Under the pieces are notes generated by a model. It saw only the letters and a list, made by a program, of their open reading frames with translations. It ran no database searches and was not told the DNA's origin. Both the position numbers and the translations under genes were made by a program. Of a stretch of DNA of 64,000 nt, positions 1,834 to 42,131 are shown in pieces. Positions within the stretch are counted from its first letter, which is position 1. Each line of letters starts with the position of its first letter. This DNA comes from Streptococcus sp. X13SY08 (GTDB lineage Bacteria; Bacillota; Bacilli; Lactobacillales; Streptococcaceae): assembly GCF_001182825.2 (NCBI RefSeq), contig NZ_LFYO02000003.1:1-64000 (forward strand), given 5' to 3'.

Positions 1834-3051
1834 ATGAAGAAAAAAATTGTAGCTATACTTTTATTGAGTGTTGTTGCTTTATCAAACTTGGGCAACGTAG
1901 CTTTAGTCAAAGCAGAGGATACAGATAGTAAAATTGCTGCTCAAGATTCAAAAATTAATTCAATTACAGCTCAACAAGCAGATGCACAAGCAAAAGTAAA
2001 TGAAATACAAGCAAAAGTAGATTCAGTGTTTTCAGAAAAAAGTTCTTTGGAAGCTGAAAATGCTATTTTGGAAGCTGAGTCTAAAAAGTTAAGTCAAGAA
2101 ATTGAAAAATTAGCGGCAGATATTGTATCTCGTTCTTCAGCATTGGAAGAGCAAGCTCGTAGCGCTCAAACAGATGCTTCAGCGACAAGCTACATTAATA
2201 CTATTCTTGATTCAAAATCAATTGTAGATGCTTTTACGCGTGTCAATGCGATGCGTGAAATTGTTGAAGCCAACAACCACATGTTGGAACAACAAAAAGA
2301 AGATAAAGAAGCAATTGCTAAAAAACAAGTTGCTAACCAAGAAGCTATCAACACAGTTGAAGCTAACTGGAAAAAGTTGGATGATGCACAGCAAGAGTTG
2401 AACACTCAACAAGCAGCTTTGAAAGCAGCTCAATTAAACTTGGCAGCTGAAAAAGCTACAGCTGAAGATGAAAAGAATCGTCTTCTTGAGGAAAAAGCAG
2501 TAGCGGAAGCAGCGGCTAGAGCAGCGGCTGAAGCACAAGCAGCTTATCAAGCACAACAAGCGGCAGTTGCTCAACAACAAGCAGCAGCAGTTGCTGCCGT
2601 ATCGGAGCAAACTCCGGTTGTAGCTCCAGCTCCGGCTGCACAAGTAGCATCTGTAGCCACTCCAACTCCAGCTCCAGCTCAAACACCGACTCCAACTCCA
2701 GCACCTCCAGCGGTATCTTATAATTCAGCTGGAAATACCTATCCTGTAGGCCAATGTACATGGGGCGCAAAAGTACGTGCTCCGTGGGTTGGGAATTACT
2801 GGGGTAATGCAAATCAATGGTTGTATTCTGCATCTGCAGCAGGATTCCGTACAGGTTCTACACCACAAGTTGGTGCGGTAGTGGTATGGACTGCGGGTTA
2901 TTATGGACACGTAGCAGTTGTTACAGCTGTAAATGGTTCACAAATTCAGGTAGAAGAGTCAAATTATGCTGGTCATCAGCATGTTGGAAACTTCCGTGGT
3001 TGGTTTAGTCCAGCAGCTGATGGTGTATCTGGTTACATTTATCCAAACTAA
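1834..3051 (+). CDS. pcsB: Secreted peptidoglycan hydrolase PcsB (coiled coil plus CHAP domain)
   Basis: PcsB is a cell-separation hydrolase that works with FtsEX at the septum in streptococci. The 405-residue product has a signal peptide ending near AEDT at residues 27-31, a long coiled coil (about 35-225), an Ala-rich segment, a Pro/Thr/Ala linker (about 265-298) and a C-terminal CHAP amidase domain (about 300-405). Putative catalytic Cys308 lies in VGQCTWG and His359 in YYGHVAVV. It has its own promoter with a WalR-like box and is followed by a strong terminator. The length is normal and the gene is intact. Confidence 0.95.
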
Positions 3052-4547: not shown

Positions 4548-5726
4548 TTGAAGTTACAGAATCGTTTTAATAAGTATTTGAATCGGATCGAGGTGTCGAT
4601 GATTCGCCAGTTTGACCAATCTATTTCGGAAATTCCAGAGATGTTGAAGCTGACTTTAGGAGAGCCTGATTTTTTGACGCCTGACCACGTGAAAGAGGCT
4701 GCTAAGCGAGCCATTGATGCGAATCAGAGTTACTATACAGGAATGGCAGGACTTTTAGAACTGCGTCAGGCTGCTTCAGAATTCATATCTGAAAAATACA
4801 ATGTAGAGTATATGGCTGATGGAGAAATTTTGGTAACAATTGGGGCAACAGAAGCCTTGTCTGCTCCTTTGATAGCAATTTTGGAGCCAGGAGACACGGT
4901 CTTACTACCAGCGCCCGCTTATCCAGGATATGAGTCTATTGTCAATATGGTGGGGCAGATATTGTCGAAATTGATACGACCGCTAATGATTTTATTTTGA
5001 CGCCTGAGATGTTAGAAGAGGCAATTATTGCTCAGGGCGATAAGTTGAAGGCAGTGATTCTCAATTATCCTGCTAATCCAACAGGGGTGACCTATTCACG
5101 TGAACAAATCAAGGCTTTTGCTGAGGTTTTGGAAAAATATCCTATCTTTGTTCTGTCGGATGAAGTCTATGCTGAATTAACATATACTAATCAGCTACAT
5201 GTATCAATTGCAGAGTATTTACCTGAGCAGACTATTTTGATTCAAAGTTTGTCTAAATCGCATGCTATGACCGGCTGGCGGATTGGTCTTATTCTGTCTC
5301 ATCAGGAGATTATTGCGCAAGTAATTAAGGAGTCATCAATATTTGGTGACGGCATCAGCTACGGCCATGCAGTACGGGGCCTTAGAGGCTTTAAAAAATG
5401 GTAAGGATGACGCACTTCCTATGCGTGAGGCTTATGTGGCACGTAGGGATTATATTATGGAGAAAATGCAGGATTTGGGTCTTAAGATTATTAGGCCTGA
5501 TGGGGCATTTTATATCTTTGCAAAGATACCGATAGGTTATAACCAAGATTCTTTTGCTTTCTTACAGGAATTTGCGCGTCAAAAATCTGTAGCCTTTATT
5601 CCTGATGCTGCTTTTGGAAAATATGGTGAGGGTTACATTCGAATCTCCTATGCGGCAAGTATGGAGGTAATCGAAGAAGCTATGAAACGGTTAAAGGAAT
5701 TTATGGAAGAAAATGGAGAGAATTGA
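4548..5726 (+). pseudogene. Class I/II PLP aminotransferase, double frameshift
   Basis: This encodes a fold-type I aminotransferase of the aspartate/aromatic group, normally about 390 residues. It starts at TTG 4548 behind GAGGAAGGGA. Frame one covers the N-terminus through LLPAPAYPGYESIV. A base is missing in a G run at 4952-4955, shifting the frame until about 5330, where an extra base restores it. The middle frame carries SDEVYAEL and the PLP-lysine segment SLSKSHAMTGWR. The last frame carries the C-terminal domain with RPDGAFYIFAKIP and IRISYA. All catalytic parts exist but not in one frame. recO overlaps its end, as in other streptococci. Confidence 0.85.
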
Positions 5727-6594: not shown

Positions 6595-7487
6595 GTGGTA
6601 GAAGGCGTCAATCAAGCTGTAGCAGCTTTTGTGGATGTGGAGATTATTTTGTATGGTGACGAGAGCAAAATTAAAGAGTACTTGACAGCGACTGAGCGTG
6701 TGACAGTAGTGCATACGGATGAAAAGATCAATTCGGATGATGAGCCAGCTAAAGCGATTCGTCGCAAGAAAAATGCGTCAATGGTATTGGCGGCGCGTGC
6801 AGTCAAAAATGGAGAAGCACAAGCGGTCTTGTCTGCAGGGAATACTGGTGCTCTTTTAGCAGCTGGACTCTTTGTGGTAGGTCGTATCAAAGGGATTGAA
6901 CGTCCAGGGCTTCTGTCTACCTTGCCAACGACAGACGGTAAGGGCTTTGATATGTTGGATTTAGGCGCCAATGCGGAAAATACAGCCAAGCATTTGCATC
7001 AGTACGGTATTTTAGGATCTTTCTATGCGGAAAATGTTCGGGGGATTAAGAAGCCTCGTGTGGGTCTTTTGAATAATGGAACAGAGGATTTGTTGGAAAT
7101 GTAGAGGCGCGTGAATTGATGAATGGCGTTGCTGATGTTGTTGTGGCGGATGGTTTCACGGGAAACGCCGTGCTCAAATCCATTGAGGGTACGGCTTTGG
7201 GCATTATGAGTCAATTAAAATCTGCTATTGAAGGCGGAGGCTTGCAATCTAAAATCGGTTACCTCTTTATGAAAAATAGCTTGCGTACTTTGAAGAAATC
7301 CTTGGATTATTCAGATGCGGGTGGTGCTGTTTTATTTGGTCTCAATGCACCTGTGGTAAAGGCTCATGGTTCTAGTGATGCTAAGACAATTTTTGCGACG
7401 ATTCGTCAGATTCGGACTATGTTAGATTCAGATGTTGTGGCGAAATCAGTAGAAAAATTTTCTCAAATGGAGGTAAAACTTGACTAA
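6595..7487 (+). pseudogene. plsX: Phosphate acyltransferase PlsX, N-terminal and internal deletions
   Basis: PlsX makes acyl-phosphate from acyl-ACP for phospholipid synthesis and is normally about 330 residues. Two pieces are recognisable: [12 protein letters not shown] through VGLLNNGTE (6595-7085), and [20 protein letters not shown] to the end (about 7096-7487) in another frame. The first about 17 residues, which carry the conserved DAMGGD motif, are missing; a TGA stands where they should join. About 20 codons are missing near 7088, out of frame. A promoter-like TATAAT at about 6576-6581 remains. An essential-type gene in this state suggests a faulty consensus. Confidence 0.85.
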
Positions 7488-20583: not shown

Positions 20584-20901
20584 TTAATTTGGATAAATAT
20601 AGGTTGTGACACCATCTGCGACAGGATTGAACCAGCCACGGAAATCACCAACATATTGCTTGCCAGCATAGTTGGATTCCTTGACGCGGATGCGCATTGC
20701 ACTCTCAACCTGAGTAGACCAAGTTGCTACATCAATAGACTGAATATCAAAACTAGCATTCGCCTTTTCCGTCTCTGGAAAAATAGCAGAGCTCTCAGCA
20801 GAAAAGGAATCAGAACTTGACTGCGCAAAAGCCACAGGTTGTTGAGCCAAACTAGCCAGCAAAACCGCTGACGACAATAATAGTGTTGAATATTTTTTCA
20901 T
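20584..20901 (-). pseudogene. Secreted CHAP-type protein with catalytic core deleted
   Basis: The 105-residue frame has an intact signal peptide (ending near AFAQSS, residue 27), about 40 residues of Ser/Glu-rich linker, and then only the last about 35 residues of a CHAP domain, [15 protein letters not shown] through GVTTYIYPN. These align with the very end of the PcsB CHAP domain at 2940-3051. The part holding the catalytic Cys and His is missing; the junction lies near 20690-20720, in frame. AGGAGG precedes the ATG. A short secreted tail is encoded but cannot be a hydrolase. Confidence 0.75.
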
Positions 20902-31796: not shown

Positions 31797-32405
31797 TTAG
31801 TCAGCATGATTGATTTGTTCGTAAGAATGTTGCCCATCATTGAGCTTGTCCCAGATGACTACCTGACCAGCTGCCAGAGATTTTTGGACATCGATGATGC
31901 GCTGGTTGGATGAACCACGAAATTGTAGCATGAGATTGCGCTTGGAACGGTCAAATCGTCCGTCCACCAAGATGTCAATCAGACCTAGCAGTTCCAGTTT
32001 ATCTTCAGTTTCTAGCATCATTTCTTCCCAAGTATAGCCAGTCCAGGACCAGATATCCTTTTCTGGTAATTCTTGACGAATGTGTTTGACTAGTGGCAGG
32101 AGAATTCCTATATTGAGGAAGGGGTCACCTCCCAAAAGAGTCAGGCCCTGCACATAGGGCTGTGCCAAATCTGCCATGATTCGCTCTTCCAACTCTGGTG
32201 TGTAAGGAATACCTGCACGAAAATTCCACGTTGCGACGTTGTAGCAGCCCTGGCAGTGAAACATGCAACCTGCTACATAGAGGGAATTGCGGACACCCTC
32301 ACCATCTACGAAGTTAAAAGCCTTGTAGTCAATAATATGCCCTTGGCTAAGTTCTGCAGATTTCCATTCGCCAGGCTTCGGCGTGTTCCAATTCTTTTCC
32401 CTCAC
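31797..32405 (-). CDS. nrdG: Anaerobic ribonucleotide reductase activating protein
   Basis: NrdG is the radical-SAM activase that puts the glycyl radical on NrdD. The cluster motif CMFHCQGC (C-x3-C-x2-C) is present, followed by LTLLGGDPF, the SAM-binding GGE-like motif. GTG 32405 is chosen: GAGG lies 5 bp upstream and the product (202 residues) then matches family length. An upstream in-frame codon at 32471 lies inside the acetyltransferase gene. The gene follows nrdD on the same strand with four small genes between. Confidence 0.93.
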   Translation of the reverse strand: MREKNWNTPKPGEWKSAELSQGHIIDYKAFNFVDGEGVRNSLYVAGCMFHCQGCYNVATWNFRAGIPYTPELEERIMADLAQPYVQGLTLLGGDPFLNIGILLPLVKHIRQELPEKDIWSWTGYTWEEMMLETEDKLELLGLIDILVDGRFDRSKRNLMLQFRGSSNQRIIDVQKSLAAGQVVIWDKLNDGQHSYEQINHAD

Positions 32406-32412
32406 ATTGTCC

Positions 32413-32919
32413 TCATTCTGGATTAATCCAATATCTTTCTGTATCATCACGTACATCCTCCAACACTCCACCGTTTTTAAGGATTACCGCGCGGTTGGCA
32501 GCATTGGTCTCGTCACAAGTGACAAGCACCTTTGAGATGTTTTTGGAAATAGCTACGCTGAGACCTTGACGGAGCATTTGGGTCGCGTAACTCTTTCCTT
32601 GCTGGCTAGGTCGTACCGAATAGCCGATATGACCACCATGATGCAGCAAAAAATCACTCAGTCGCAAACGTAAATTGAGAAATCCAACGGCTTTTCCATC
32701 AACAAATCCTACAAATTGCACCGCAGGTACCCAGCTATCGGGAATATTGAGCCCCATTTCCTCATCAGTATTTCCAGCAATCCACTCTTCGTAGTCAAAG
32801 TGTTCTGCATCCCAAAATCCGCCATCGTGGGCAGCTGTCGTTTCTTCAAATTCTCGCATAAGATCTAGTACAGCTTCCTTATCTTCCAAAGTTGGTCTTC
32901 GTAGGTCTAATTTGGTCAT
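32413..32919 (-). CDS. GNAT-family N-acetyltransferase
   Basis: The 168-residue product has GNAT features: the central VGFVDGKAVGFLNLRLRL strand region in part (VDGKAVGFLNL), the acetyl-CoA loop RPSQQGKSYATQML, and the C-terminal NAANRAVILKNGG. It sits between nrdD and nrdG as in pneumococcus. Its stop is 8 bp before the nrdG start. The substrate is unknown. The gene is intact. Confidence 0.88.
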   Translation of the reverse strand: MTKLDLRRPTLEDKEAVLDLMREFEETTAAHDGGFWDAEHFDYEEWIAGNTDEEMGLNIPDSWVPAVQFVGFVDGKAVGFLNLRLRLSDFLLHHGGHIGYSVRPSQQGKSYATQMLRQGLSVAISKNISKVLVTCDETNAANRAVILKNGGVLEDVRDDTERYWINPE

Positions 32920-32922
32920 TGA

Positions 32923-33858
32923 TTATCCTTTCGGTAAGTTCAGATCTAATGGTCCAGTATTTTCTATTGCAGTATTGATTTGTTGGCAAATCCAGTGACT
33001 AAGCAGGCTTGATTCTGGTGTGACAGGATTTATATTAGTCTTTATAGCATCGATAAATGCTAAAATAATGGACTCAAACCCTCGTTTGTAAAGGGTAGTG
33101 TCCCATGAACCAAAATGTTCAATTGTTTGTTTGGTTCCCTCAAAAATGGACAAGTTTTCCAAGTTCTCCAAATGGTAGGTAGCACGAGATATCTGTACTT
33201 CCATGATTTCCCGACGACTGCCTGATTGCAGGTTCATGCTGGCCAAGATAGTAGATTGAGCTGTTTCCAAGGTCACAGATACTTGGTACAGTTGCCCATC
33301 TTTTTTATGGAACTGATAGCGTCCGCTGAGCAATTCTTGATCTGTTAAAAAGAGGGCTGTGTCCAGTGGATGGACGAAGAAATCAAAGAGTTTGAACTGG
33401 AAATTGCCAGATTGATTAACATCATTCTTTTCCACATAAATGCGGGTCTTATCAACCTGCTCTGCCATTTTCAAAACTTTGGGCGCAAAGCGACGATTGA
33501 AGCCCGCCATGAGAAAGGTGCTATGCGCCTCCGCCAAATCATAGAGCTCTTTGGTCTGGGCATATCTTTCCGTGAGAGGTTTGTCCATGTAGACGGGAAT
33601 GCCCTTTTGGAGAAAAGCTTGTGTCGTTTCGAAGCGAGCAATGGTGGCTGTGTGGATAAAGACACCATCAAGTGGAGCAGCAGCCAGTGCTTGTAGGCTA
33701 CCGTAGGTAGTAACAGTACCAAAAAGCTCAGCAACCTCTGCCAAAACTTCTTGATTTCTGGTAAAAAGATGCCAATGAATATCAGGGAATTGGCGCATAA
33801 AAGGTAAATAAGCCTTCTGCGAAATCCCTCCTAAACCGACAATGCCAATGTGTAGCAT
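32923..33858 (-). CDS. Gfo/Idh/MocA-family oxidoreductase
   Basis: The 311-residue product has an N-terminal Rossmann fold (IGIVGLGGISQKAYLP), the YMDKPLTERYAQ segment with the conserved Lys-Pro, and a C-terminal substrate domain. ATG 33858 (MLHIGIVGL) is chosen over 33900 because the family starts there and GAAAGAAG lies upstream. It is NAD(P)-dependent by family; the substrate is unknown. It is inserted in the nrdD-nrdG block. Confidence 0.88.
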   Translation of the reverse strand: MLHIGIVGLGGISQKAYLPFMRQFPDIHWHLFTRNQEVLAEVAELFGTVTTYGSLQALAAAPLDGVFIHTATIARFETTQAFLQKGIPVYMDKPLTERYAQTKELYDLAEAHSTFLMAGFNRRFAPKVLKMAEQVDKTRIYVEKNDVNQSGNFQFKLFDFFVHPLDTALFLTDQELLSGRYQFHKKDGQLYQVSVTLETAQSTILASMNLQSGSRREIMEVQISRATYHLENLENLSIFEGTKQTIEHFGSWDTTLYKRGFESIILAFIDAIKTNINPVTPESSLLSHWICQQINTAIENTGPLDLNLPKG

Positions 33859-33910
33859 ATTTTTCTTCTTTCTTTTTGGTATCATACAATAAAAGAGCAC
33901 GAGGCTCTTT

Positions 33911-34045
33911 TTATTTTTTCTTACTTTGAGCTTTCTTCAAAAGCTCTTGTACACGTGATTTTTTATCACTTTTCACAACCGAATGCTTCTCGTGGAATTT
34001 CTCCACACGTTGCATTCCCTTATAATCTAATTGAAATTTTCCCAT
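33911..34045 (-). CDS. Conserved 44-residue basic protein of the nrd locus
   Basis: The small frame MGKFQLDYKGMQRVEKF... is Lys-rich at the C-terminus (QSKKK). A similar tiny gene lies between nrdD and the acetyltransferase gene in other streptococci. No domain is recognised. Its position supports a real gene despite its size. Confidence 0.7.
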   Translation of the reverse strand: MGKFQLDYKGMQRVEKFHEKHSVVKSDKKSRVQELLKKAQSKKK

Positions 34046-34293
34046 AACATAAGATACAAAGCCGTTAAGCGACACGCAACAAAATAGGAAGTATGACGAC
34101 GCTACTCGCAGCTAGGAATTACTTATCTTTTTGTAAAGTGTCGTAGGCGTGTTCGGTTCCTTTCTAAGCTATAGTGGATAATAAGAGTTTTAGCCCGAGT
34201 TCGAATACTTGAGCGCCCTATTATTCCTTTCTATGCTGAAAGTCAGTTTTTATGACTTTTCTCTTTATTCTACCATAATGGAACGAAGCTTGC
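34046..34293. other. Gene-free spacer between two small minus-strand genes
   Basis: No supported open frame is present. The spacer includes short inverted repeats (GAAAGTCAGTTTTTATGACTTTTC near 34239-34262 and CGACAC/GTGTCG pieces). No family is recognised. Confidence 0.3.
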
Positions 34294-34572
34294 TTAGATC
34301 GGGCGGTCCGTAGTACTAGCCTTATGTTTCAAATAATGGCGAACTAATTCTTCCACGATATCATCAGGTTGACAGTGGCGGATATGGTTGCGAGCATTTT
34401 TGTAGCGGGGAATATAAGCGGGGTCTCCGCTGAGAATATAGCTTACAATTTGATGGATGGGATTGTAGCCAATTTCAGCCAATGAGTCAGACACAGCCTT
34501 CAAATCGGCACCCATCTCTTCGCGGTCTTCTAAATCAAAGCGAACGGTTTCGCTTTTTAATATTTCTGCCAT
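34294..34572 (-). CDS. IreB-family (UPF0297) protein, second copy behind nrdD
   Basis: The 92-residue product carries the UPF0297/IreB core: [10 protein letters not shown], then [23 protein letters not shown] in parts ([21 protein letters not shown]), KNARNHIR and [11 protein letters not shown]. IreB in enterococci is a small regulator phosphorylated by the IreK kinase; Thr7 of the ETVRF motif is kept here while the upstream Thr4 is not. ATG 34572 is chosen because GGATGAGG overlaps the nrdD stop 8 bp upstream. It is cotranscribed with nrdD by spacing. The usual ireB at 41417-41572 is separate and lacks the core. Confidence 0.8.
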
Positions 34573-34579
34573 AAAAGCC

Positions 34580-36772
34580 TCATCCTTGTCCTGAAGATAG
34601 AATACTTGCCCCATTCATGTGTTTGACGCGTGCTGAAATTTCTTTATGGCGACCATGCACCATTGGGCGGGCCTGAGGATTGCCTAGATAGCCACAAGTG
34701 CGTTTGACCACGTCAACGGTTTTAGGGTCAGTATTGCCACAGTTTGGACACTTGAAGCCACGTTCAGTTGGTTCAAAGTCGCCTTCAAAGTCACAGAGAT
34801 AACACTTGTCAATCGGTGTATTGGTTCCTAAATATCCTACGCGGTCGTAGGCATAGTCCCAAACGGCTTCCAGAGCCTTAGGGTTTTGCTGGAGCACAGG
34901 ATATTCACAATAATGGATGAAGCCACCGCTAGCACCTGCTTCAGGATAAACCTTTTCAAAGTCTAATTTTTCAAATGGGGCCGAGTTTTTGCGGACATCA
35001 TAATGGAAGGAATTGGTGTAGTAATCTTTGTCTGTGATATTCTCGACTAGGCCAAATTTCTCCTTGTCTAGACGGCAGAAGCGGTCTGTCAAGCTCTCAG
35101 ATGGTGTCGAGTAAACAGAAAAATGATAGTCGTATTTATCCGACCAAGCTCCACAAAGTTCTTTCATCTGTTTCACGATAGAGACCGTAAAGTCTTTAGC
35201 TTGTGCATTGTTCTCCCAATTACCTCCGTAAAAGACGCTAGCGACTTCATAAAGACCTATATAACCTAGAGAAATGGTAGCTCTGCGGTGTTTAAAGAGT
35301 TGATCCACGTCATCAAATTTTTCAAGACGTTGGCCGAAAGCACCGTATTGATAGAGGATGGGCGCGTTAGCGGGCGTCGCTTCCTTGACGCGCTCCACAC
35401 GATAAACCAAGGCGTCGTGTGCAATCTGCATGCGTTCTTGGAACAAATCCCAGAATTTCTCCTTATCTCCTTTGGATTCCATGGCAATCCGTGGTAAATT
35501 GATGGTCACAACGCCCAAATTCATACGACCAGATGTCACATCCTGCCCATTTTGATCTTTCCAACCTTGCAAGAAAGAGCGGCACCCCATTGGAGCCTTA
35601 AATGAACCCGTCAAATCAATAATCTTGTCGTAGCTGAGCATATCAGGGTACATGCGTTTGGTAGCACATTCCAAGGCTAACTGTTTGATGTCGTAGTTGG
35701 GTGAAACAGGCTCCAAGTTGAGACCACGTTTGACGGTGAAAATCAATTTAGGGAAAATAGCGGTGCGGTGCTCACTACCGAGACCTGCAATACGGATGTT
35801 AAGGATGGCTTTTTGAATTTCGCGTTCAAACCAAGAAGTTCCCAAACCGAATCCGAGTGATGTAAATGGCGTTTGTCCATTAGAGGTAAAGAGTGTGTTA
35901 ATCTCATATTCTAAGGATTGCATGGCATCGTAGATATCTTTTTGTGTTTTTTCACGGGCGTAAGCCTCATGCTGATCAGGCAAGACCCATTTTTCCGCGT
36001 CAGCCATGTGTTTTTTGAAATTCAGTTCTGCGTATGGTGCCAAAAATTCATCAATTCGATCTGCGGTACAACCACCATATTGGCTAGAAGCCACATTAGC
36101 GATGATTTGAGAAATCTGGGCGGTTGCTGTTTGGATGGATTTTGGACTTTCCACCTCGGCATTGCCGATTTTAAAACCATTTGCCAACATACCTTTGAAA
36201 TCAATGAGGCAGCAGTTGGTCATGGGCGTGTAAGGGCTGTAATCCAAATCGTGGTAGTGGATATCCCCTTTTTGGTGGGCATTAGCCACGTGAGGTGGCA
36301 ACATTTTCAGTCCGATAGATTTTCCGACGATCCCTGCGGTTAAATCACGCTGGGTATTGAAAACATCACTATCTTTGTTGGCATTTTCATTGACTACCGT
36401 CTGATCCTTGTTAATCAGTTTGTCGATGGTGAAGTTGATATCAGTCGCCTGTGAGCGCGCGAAATCACGTTGTGTACGGTAGTGGATATACTCTTTAGCC
36501 AAGGGGTATTCGTTGGCCTCCAACAGTTCGTGTTCCACGATGTTTTGAATTTCGTAAATCTTGATATCTTTGGAAAAACGTTCGTAAATCTCAGTCTCCA
36601 CTCGGCGGCAAATCTCTGCTAATTTTACTTCCATGAAATCAGAATCCGGCGAAATTTTGCGGCTTGCCTTCAAGAGGGCTTCGTGGATTTTTTCCATATC
36701 AAAGCTCACTCGACGGCCGTCACGCTTAATGACCATCATATTTTGTATGGGGACGAGATCTACTTTTTCCAT
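34580..36772 (-). CDS. nrdD: Anaerobic ribonucleoside-triphosphate reductase
   Basis: NrdD reduces NTPs to dNTPs without oxygen, using a glycyl radical. The product has 730 residues. An N-terminal ATP-cone ([16 protein letters not shown]) is followed by the barrel domain, the zinc site CYLCDFEGD...CPNCG and the glycyl-radical segment [16 protein letters not shown] 36772 with AAGGAGTG upstream is chosen; an in-frame codon at 36865 lies in the promoter region. An NrdR-type box precedes it. The gene is intact. Confidence 0.95.
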
Positions 36773-36867
36773 GTTCTTCACTCCTTTATCTAACTGTCTT
36801 ATAGTGTAGCAGCATTTTTTACAAAAATCAATATCTAGTAGACGCATTTCAAAAAATGTTTTCAATT

Positions 36868-36883
36868 ATACTATATATAGTGT
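36868..36883 (-). promoter_or_regulatory. NrdR box upstream of nrdD
   Basis: On the minus strand ACACTATATATAGTAT is a near-perfect 16-bp palindrome matching the NrdR consensus acaCwAtATaTwGtgt. A partial second box (ACACTATAAG) lies at about 36799-36808. Confidence 0.75.
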
Positions 36884-40670: not shown

Positions 40671-40988
40671 TTATTCTTCTTCGTCAAGGAAGCTATTGAA
40701 GACCTCTTCAATCATATCCCACTCAGCAGTTGCATCTTCAGGGATTGGTTGCAAGTCGCCTTCTGTACCATTTTCATTTTCTACAAATGAGTAGGCTTGG
40801 ATTTCAACTTGTCCATTTTCGTCTTCCTCAGCGCTTGCTGGAATTAAAAGAACATAGTTTTTACCAAATTCTTCTTGCCCATCAATTGTCAAAAGGATTT
40901 CAAACAAGGTTTCGTTACCTTGGTCATCTACCAAAGTAATTAATTCGCGTTCTTCATGATTGTGGTCATGGTTATGATCGTATGCCAT
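40671..40988 (-). CDS. DUF1292 (UPF0473) family protein
   Basis: The 105-residue acidic protein has a His-rich start ([13 protein letters not shown]) and the DUF1292 core ([19 protein letters not shown]). It is the third member of the conserved Firmicute trio ireB-ruvX-DUF1292. Function is unknown. It lies 9 bp after the ruvX stop. The gene is intact. Confidence 0.9.
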
Positions 40989-40997
40989 TTTTTCTCC

Positions 40998-41417
40998 TTA
41001 AAATGTTCTATCTAAATAATTTTGTAAAATAAGCTGAGCTGCCAGCTTATCAATGACTTTTTTGCGTTTACCACGGCTGATATCAGCTTGTTCAATCAGC
41101 ATGCGCTCGGCAGCGACAGTCGTCAAGCGCTCATCCTGATACTCCACCGGAAGTCCATAATGCTCAATGAGCAATTGTCCGTAAGCTTCGCTAGCTTCGA
41201 CGCGAGGACCACTAGTATTATTCATGTTTTTTGGAAGACCAACGACAAATTTATCAACCTTGTATTGCTCAACCAGTTGACTTAAGCGTTCCAGTCCAAA
41301 TTCTTTTTTTTCTTCATCGATTGGAATGATTTCCAAGCCTTGAGCGGTAAAACCGAGCGGATCAGAGATGGCAACGCCAACGGTTTTTGATCCGACATCT
41401 AATCCCATAATTCTCAT
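40998..41417 (-). CDS. ruvX: Holliday-junction resolvase-like / pre-16S rRNA nuclease RuvX (YqgF)
   Basis: The 139-residue RNase-H-fold protein matures the 16S 5' end. It has the N-terminal [16 protein letters not shown] with a catalytic Asp, [10 protein letters not shown], and [15 protein letters not shown] with a catalytic Glu. Its ATG overlaps the ireB stop by 1 bp (TAATG). The gene is intact. Confidence 0.93.
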
Positions 41418-41572
41418 TAGAGGTCAATCCCATTTTCTTTCAAGTAAAAACGAACCAACTCCTCCACAATTTTTTCTTCGAGAGAGCGATAAACATTGGT
41501 CAAGGTTTCGCTGATTTCTTTCTTATTGGAGTCATCCAACCGGAAGCGAACTGTCTCTTCTGTGAATCCCAT
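41417..41572 (-). CDS. ireB: IreB (UPF0297), in-frame deletion of the conserved core
   Basis: The open frame gives 51 residues: [19 protein letters not shown]..., then SLEEK joined directly to [11 protein letters not shown]. Streptococcal UPF0297 proteins are about 88 residues, with GYNPINQIVGY...SGDPAYVPRY...NNARNQIRK between these parts. The missing piece is 37 codons, exactly in frame. Thr4 and Thr7, the phospho-acceptor positions known in enterococcal IreB, are kept. The gene is the first of the ireB-ruvX-DUF1292 trio. A second IreB-family gene with an intact core lies at 34294-34572. Confidence 0.88.
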
Positions 41573-41732: not shown

Positions 41733-42131
41733 TTACAAAGCTGCGCGCATACGAGCTTGAGCGTTTTCCACATTGCGGACAGCGCGTGGCAAGAAGGCAC
41801 GAATATCATCTTCTTTATAGCCAACTTGAAGACGTTTGTCATCAATCAAAATAGGGCTCTTCAAAATACGAGGATTAGCAGTGATGATGTCAATGACCTC
41901 ATTAACACTCAATTCCTCAATATCGCATTCCAAGCTTTTGGCATAGCGATTTTTAGAGGAAACAATACTGGCAATCCCATTTTCAGTTTTTGCTAAAATG
42001 TTAAGAATTTCTTCTTTTGTGATAGATTCTTTACCAAGGTTATGCTCATTGTAAGACAGTTGGTGTGCAGTCAACCAATTTTTTGCTTTTTTACAACTCG
42101 TGCAACTAGATACAGTATAAATTTTAATCAT
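41733..42131 (-). CDS. spxA: Transcriptional regulator Spx
   Basis: Spx binds the RNA polymerase alpha C-terminal domain and redirects transcription under thiol and oxidative stress. The 132-residue length is normal. The redox switch C10-T-S-C13 is intact, and RPRILKSPILID-type text (NPRILKSPILIDDKRLQVGY) marks the ArsC-like fold. The upstream region 42132-42350 is AT-rich and holds its promoter but no further gene. Confidence 0.93.
   Translation of the reverse strand: MIKIYTVSSCTSCKKAKNWLTAHQLSYNEHNLGKESITKEEILNILAKTENGIASIVSSKNRYAKSLECDIEELSVNEVIDIITANPRILKSPILIDDKRLQVGYKEDDIRAFLPRAVRNVENAQARMRAAL

Follow-up and report, generated by a model that had tools for sequence, protein, structure and literature searches.

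IreB, ReoM and CcpS pass signals from PASTA kinases to peptidoglycan and capsule synthesis. The window analysed here, a stretch of 64,000 nucleotides from Streptococcus sp. X13SY08, holds the ireB that belongs to the ruvX cluster and, 6.8 kb away from it, a second predicted gene of the same family placed directly behind nrdD, which encodes the anaerobic ribonucleoside-triphosphate reductase. This raises the question of what an IreB-type protein does in that position: whether it connects Ser/Thr kinase signaling with dNTP supply in the absence of oxygen or replaces an ireB that appears damaged in this genome, as the original prediction proposed, or whether another explanation is to be preferred. 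The features on which the analysis is based are collected in Table 1.

Table 1. Features of the nrdD and ruvX loci in the window, all on the minus strand.
Feature	Position	Strand	Basis or remark
nrdG, activating enzyme	31797..32471	-	TIGR02491, 197.3 bits; coordinates from the first start, the true one being probably more internal
GNAT acetyltransferase	32413..32919	-	PF13302, PF00583
Gfo/Idh/MocA-type oxidoreductase	32923..33900	-	PF01408
Small conserved ORF (MGKFQLDYKG...)	33911..34045	-	No Pfam or NCBIfam match
nrdD-linked IreB-family paralogue, 92 aa	34294..34572	-	PF06135, NF003997, fold match, same site in four further genomes
Pro69 codon, common to nrdD-linked copies, at the ReoM Arg70 position	34366..34368	-	Alignment
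Thr9 codon, counterpart of the kinase-target Thr7 of IreB, ReoM and CcpS	34546..34548	-	Alignment
nrdD, anaerobic ribonucleoside-triphosphate reductase, intact	34580..36772	-	NF006732, 1202 bits; no internal loss against two references
Pair of putative NrdR boxes preceding nrdD, of the long-spacer class	36826..36883	-	Consensus and regular expression
105-aa gene after ruvX, which we take to be DUF1292-like	40671..40988	-	
ruvX, next in the canonical ireB cluster, intact	40998..41417	-	Comparison with references
Canonical ireB, minus 37 codons of its core, probably through an assembly fault	41417..41572	-	Comparison with references

The paralogue starts with ATG and has 92 open codons, and it lacks the adjacency to ruvX, the ruvX-linked ireB being a separate gene. 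Its product matches the PF06135 IreB profile with 93.9 bits (cut-off 25), residues 8-82 corresponding to positions 2-78 of the 78 in the profile, and NF003997 with 98.1 bits (cut-off 91). An AlphaFold model made from 29 sequences has a mean pLDDT of 80.7, with low confidence in residues 1-9, and its predicted helices (15-33, 38-48, 60-65 and 69-87) reproduce the four-helix fold of IreB, ReoM and CcpS. All seven Foldseek matches of this model with E below 0.001 are CcpS, ReoM or IreB chains, with TM-scores by query of 0.66-0.74 (CcpS 7y8z, ReoM 6tif, IreB 5us5) and rmsd values of 1.0-11.9, some of the whole-chain values being large. Both the profile search and the structure prediction place the protein in UPF0297, as had been proposed from its core, and by these two lines it is a genuine IreB/ReoM/CcpS-family gene, in an operon context that is new for this family. 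No description of an nrdD-linked IreB paralogue was found in the open-access PMC text that was searched. The predicted arrangement with nrdD was also borne out: the gap between the two genes spans 7 bp (34573-34579, the last base of nrdD being 34580), and the stretch GGATGAGG, the putative ribosome pairing site of the paralogue, overlaps the nrdD stop. An in-frame ATG further upstream, within nrdD, would give an ORF of 106 codons.

Relatives were surveyed in 284 genomes of the genus Streptococcus, namely the genome of the window and 283 others, and in a sample of 395 genomes of the order, of which 324 are from outside the genus. Although an IreB match is present in all 284 genomes of the genus, the nrdD-linked paralogue was found in only five: the window genome and four others (G035, G079, G266 and G200, which is S. 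sobrinus DSM 20742, locus L072). The question of whether the gene occurs beside nrdD in relatives is thus answered positively for 4 of the 283 other genomes. In the neighborhoods examined in these four, as in the window, the extra ireB is flanked by nrdD on one side and the small ORF on the other, and the five copies share both this site and a Pro at the position of ReoM Arg70. A second copy went undetected in the remaining 279 genomes of the genus, and two copies were seen in none of the 395 genomes of the order sample (one had no copy at all), nor in any of the 324 from outside the genus, although very diverged second copies could escape these counts. One further genome, G199, was dropped as a two-copy genome, its second match (20.5 bits) being under the cut-off. 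When named genomes were scanned, the window protein as query gave no further nrdD-linked copy, and the S. sobrinus copy as query returned at least 565 relatives, S. sobrinus being the only one among the 80 retained with nrdD in the stretch examined.

The 30 loci with the closest nrdD DNA, which include the window and G035, were also compared. In the 28 non-carriers among them the small conserved ORF comes directly next after nrdD, at a distance of 5-11 bp in 17 loci and of 68-316 bp in 11, and no ireB match follows nrdD. Remnants of the paralogue were absent from the two longest of these 11 gaps, which were the ones searched (L170, 316 bp; L174, 264 bp). The survey left two side observations. 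The sole IreB match of each of two genomes (G069 and G092, loci L066 and L067) is cut by a stop or a frame change, and the IreB of a record named Streptococcus sp. 263_SSPC (L074) groups with Granulicatella, the record being possibly mislabelled.

According to the alignment, and in agreement with the original prediction, the Thr of ETVRF is kept as Thr9, the counterpart of Thr7, and the position of Thr4 is occupied by Lys6. The corresponding Thr in the S. sobrinus copy is Thr11. Thr7 is nearly invariant among canonical IreB rows (Thr in 144 of 146, a gap in two), and the ReoM Arg70 position is Arg in 146 of 146 such rows, many of them closely related, versus Pro in the paralogues of all five carriers. 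The window copy also retains the counterparts of Asp50, Arg57, Arg62, Arg66 and Tyr80, its Val73 and Tyr80 aligning with the dimer residues Ile73 and Tyr80 of CcpS. In Listeria ReoM, T7A, R57A and R62A are lethal and R66A and R70A are not, growth being unaffected by R70A (PMC7286690), while D50A in Enterococcus faecalis IreB impairs binding and inhibition of MurAB (PMC12077105). In S. suis, Stk1 phosphorylates both Thr4 and Thr7 of CcpS (PMC10148854). Since these key residues are kept in the window copy, the protein can, as far as its sequence indicates, still act like IreB. The same genome has a PASTA-domain gene, which the assembly shows as split. In the G079 copy, His occupies the Arg57 site and the Pro after Asp50 is missing.

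Among characterized proteins, the paralogue resembles S. suis CcpS in fold (7y8z/7y86, Foldseek E of about 1e-6 to 5e-6, with 57-61% of the aligned residues identical), in the low-confidence N-terminus that bears the target Thr and in the dimer-face Tyr80, and differs from it in its linkage to nrdD, in the change of Thr4 to Lys and in the Pro at the Arg70 position. With E. faecalis IreB (5us5) it shares the Asp50 loop, which binds MurAB in that species, the Thr7 counterpart and the fold (the helices match, with a whole-chain rmsd of 11.9), but identity is 51% over the aligned part. We know of no nrdD linkage for the E. faecalis gene. The counterparts of Thr7, Arg57, Arg62 and Arg66 are common to the paralogue and Listeria monocytogenes ReoM (6tif), whereas Arg70 is replaced by Pro. 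The closest parallels are the nrdD-linked copies of S. sobrinus DSM 20742, G035 and G266, which share the site, the Pro and a well-supported clade with the window copy (99/97). These copies, 57-60% identical to it, differ in having Thr or Ser at the Thr4 position, where the window copy has Lys, and in coming from genomes that also hold an intact canonical ireB.

The gene order after nrdD is paralogue, small conserved ORF, oxidoreductase, GNAT enzyme and nrdG, and nrdR is located elsewhere in the same genome. The paralogue follows nrdD closely in the window (7 bp), G079 (21 bp) and G266 (25 bp) and at a greater distance in S. sobrinus (165 bp). In G035 the two genes are separated by 981 bp, which hold an ORF that looks transposase-like by eye (L061, 2080-2646). 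Within the 7-bp gap of the window no terminator-like site was found on the minus strand, and a promoter scan performed at chance level (5 promoter-like sites versus 5.7 expected), so that the paralogue may have a private promoter. Behind the paralogue, 218 bp (34076-34293) without clear coding content precede the small ORF, and the 211 bp tested from this stretch (34080-34290) are single-copy in the genome.

Upstream of nrdD, a putative NrdR box at 36868-36883 has one mismatch to an NrdR box consensus, which gave a mean of 0.04 matches in shuffles of the window. The regular expression for box pairs of PMC12051234 finds a putative pair at 36829-36880 with a spacer of 32, of the long class. This expression is loose: when the 500 nt upstream were shuffled by mononucleotide, 65 of 2000 shuffles contained a pair of the short or long class, and elsewhere in the window it matches 11 places at the allowed spacings; the pair is therefore moderate evidence, and the near-perfect single box is stronger. 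Pairs were found before nrdD in all five other genomes examined. Those of the two carriers (G035 and G200) belong to the short-spacer class, and those of the three non-carriers to the short (G013) or long class (G043, G052). Since all three non-carriers have them, NrdR control is no peculiarity of the carriers.

The copies of the window, G035, G200 and G266 group together with support of 99/97 in a phylogeny of 40 chosen IreB rows, and this clade falls inside Streptococcaceae (99/98). Having diverged to 36% identity, the G079 copy sits on a very long branch outside this clade, although a single clade of all five is not rejected (p-AU 0.378). By plain identity the window copy is no nearer to the other paralogues (57-60%) than to canonical IreBs (up to 65%, or 61% when only the columns of the tree are counted), so it is the model-based tree, together with the shared Pro, that supports the clade. 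Duplication within Streptococcaceae is the best explanation that these sequences suggest. The carriers are scattered on an NrdD tree of 33 rows, where they are not one clade (p-AU 0.0065); hence the gene would be either old and mostly lost, or moved without nrdD, and transfer of an nrdD-ireB block as a unit was discarded. A mobile origin was likewise set aside, given that all eight plasmid records and 17 of the 18 phage records are less than 60% identical, the remaining phage record reaching 63% across 59% of the protein. In MissG2, the top phage record, Spx, a regulator, IreB and RuvX follow one another in canonical order, and this region is probably host sequence. The paralogues of G035, S. 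sobrinus and G266 are under purifying selection, with dN/dS of 0.031-0.056 in the three pairs, values that are rough owing to dS of 0.90-1.33. The corresponding values for canonical ireB are 0 to 0.009 in three pairs.

The damage attributed to the canonical ireB is there in the assembly: compared with four reference genomes, 37 codons (111 nt) are missing in frame from the ruvX-linked gene, and the genome has only one full-length IreB. Its reading as a biological event is probably wrong. A comparison of 27 genes of the window with their orthologues, taken from one, two or three relatives, revealed 11 internal losses, each of 55-120 nt, in seven of these genes, at 7088, 9103, 10514, 12159, 12570, 13297, 41471, 44511, 60616, 61431 and 61558. 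They affect plsX (64 nt), purL (64, 64 and 55 nt), purF (102 and 85 nt), ireB (111 nt), rarA (107 nt), adcC (120 nt) and adcB (110 and 74 nt), the last two genes judged against one relative only, and three of the losses measure exactly 64 nt. The junctions have no obvious shared sequence, and nrdD, nrdG and ruvX show no internal loss against relatives. Smaller differences, left uncounted, occur in aat (1 nt), in two genes (3 nt), close to the plsX start (5 nt) and at the adcA end (12 and 33 nt). Outside the 27-gene comparison, purN, purE, a 132-aa gene at 41733 and the 105-aa gene at 40671 are in one piece. The PASTA kinase gene, in another part of the genome, is likewise broken up, into three ORFs (L223, 407-2416; G000:C2, around 318.7-320.7 kb). 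Two other irregularities were seen in the window: an aminotransferase gene (4548-5726) is broken by two single-base shifts with respect to relatives, and a fragment on the minus strand (20587-20715) resembles the end of the protein that the gene at 1834-3042 encodes. Because the ireB loss is one of several losses of similar size that affect housekeeping genes and look like a systematic fault, it most likely stems, on this comparison, from the assembly and not from evolution, which makes the 'broken ireB' of this assembly unfit as evidence of gene replacement.

We favor, with a probability of roughly 0.45, the reading that the paralogue is an extra phospho-tunable IreB adaptor, made together with the anaerobic ribonucleotide reductase. 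It would be produced when NrdR releases the nrdD promoter, at low dNTP and with little oxygen, would be phosphorylated at Thr9 by the PASTA kinase and would dimerize with itself or with IreB. In its unphosphorylated form it would use the SGDPAYIPR loop to bind MurA-type enzymes and CpsB, the customary partners of IreB. Envelope synthesis would then come under an additional restraint that the kinase can tune and that keeps pace with anaerobic dNTP production.

Other explanations have to be weighed against this one. That the ruvX-linked ireB lost its core and the paralogue took over its function would fit the single full-length IreB of the window genome and a loss that is in frame and leaves ruvX intact, but this idea was dropped as the leading reading and we consider it improbable, since the other four carriers all keep an intact ruvX-linked ireB about 5-6.5 kb from the paralogue and the damage points to faulty assembly, being one of the 11 losses described above in a genome whose kinase gene is likewise split. 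The same faults could raise the suspicion that a chimera or contamination set an unrelated ireB beside nrdD. This is very hard to reconcile with the identical gene order and the same Pro in four other genomes, with nrdD and the paralogue being intact across the junction and with the grouping of the window protein with the other nrdD-linked copies. A near-neutral spare copy, that is, a duplicate that landed in an expressed place, does little beyond the role of ireB and is kept for a while before being lost in most lineages, is unlikely but deserves more attention. Its presence in only five of 284 genomes, scattered on the NrdD tree, would agree with this, as would the altered key residues of the 36%-identical G079 copy, the transposase-like ORF upstream of the paralogue in G035 and a dN/dS several times that of canonical ireB. 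Still, dN/dS is only 0.03-0.06 in three species, the Pro and the clade shared across two lineages suggest long retention, and the window copy is intact.

The paralogue could instead control ribonucleotide reductase itself, binding NrdR (or NrdD or NrdG) and carrying PASTA-kinase signals into dNTP supply, with a feedback loop arising from the NrdR-controlled operon. We regard this, too, as unlikely, although its site behind nrdD speaks in its favor and several published observations are in line with it. A genomic expression library of S. suis with CcpS (IreB) as bait yielded nrdR, which was set aside there as unrelated to capsule (PMC10148854); pneumococcal mutants in stkP and phpP contain lower amounts of NrdD, NrdE and NrdF (PMC7011611); the candidate substrates of PrkC in Clostridioides difficile include both NrdD and IreB (PMC9674922); and a study of streptococcal NrdR names two possibilities, one of them being that its binding to long-spaced boxes is promoted in vivo by other factors (PMC12051234). 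The first two of these lend indirect support to a link from the kinase to dNTP supply, which is plausible. On the other hand, the S. suis match was a screen recovery obtained with the canonical protein (PMC10148854), the nrdD promoters of G035 and G200 are of the short-spacer class, which calls for no extra factor, and the MurAB-binding loop that is kept needs no reductase target. Furthermore, no second copy was detected in 279 of the 284 genomes, so control of the reductase needs no paralogue. A bolder version, in which IreB-family proteins at large are NrdR partners and some streptococci specialized an nrdD-operon paralogue for NrdR, with phospho-Thr9 setting NrdR activity, seems quite doubtful to us. 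If true, it would bring cell-wall state and dNTP supply under one kinase through one adaptor, with feedback, and the paralogue could be an in vivo factor of the kind offered for the weak NrdR binding to long-spaced streptococcal boxes (PMC12051234).

A selected copy of an IreB-type gene behind nrdD would represent a natural and testable link of cell-envelope signaling with DNA precursor supply in these streptococci. The paralogue may also offer a way to ask why pneumococcal stkP mutants contain less NrdD, NrdE and NrdF, and why nrdR surfaced with an IreB bait.
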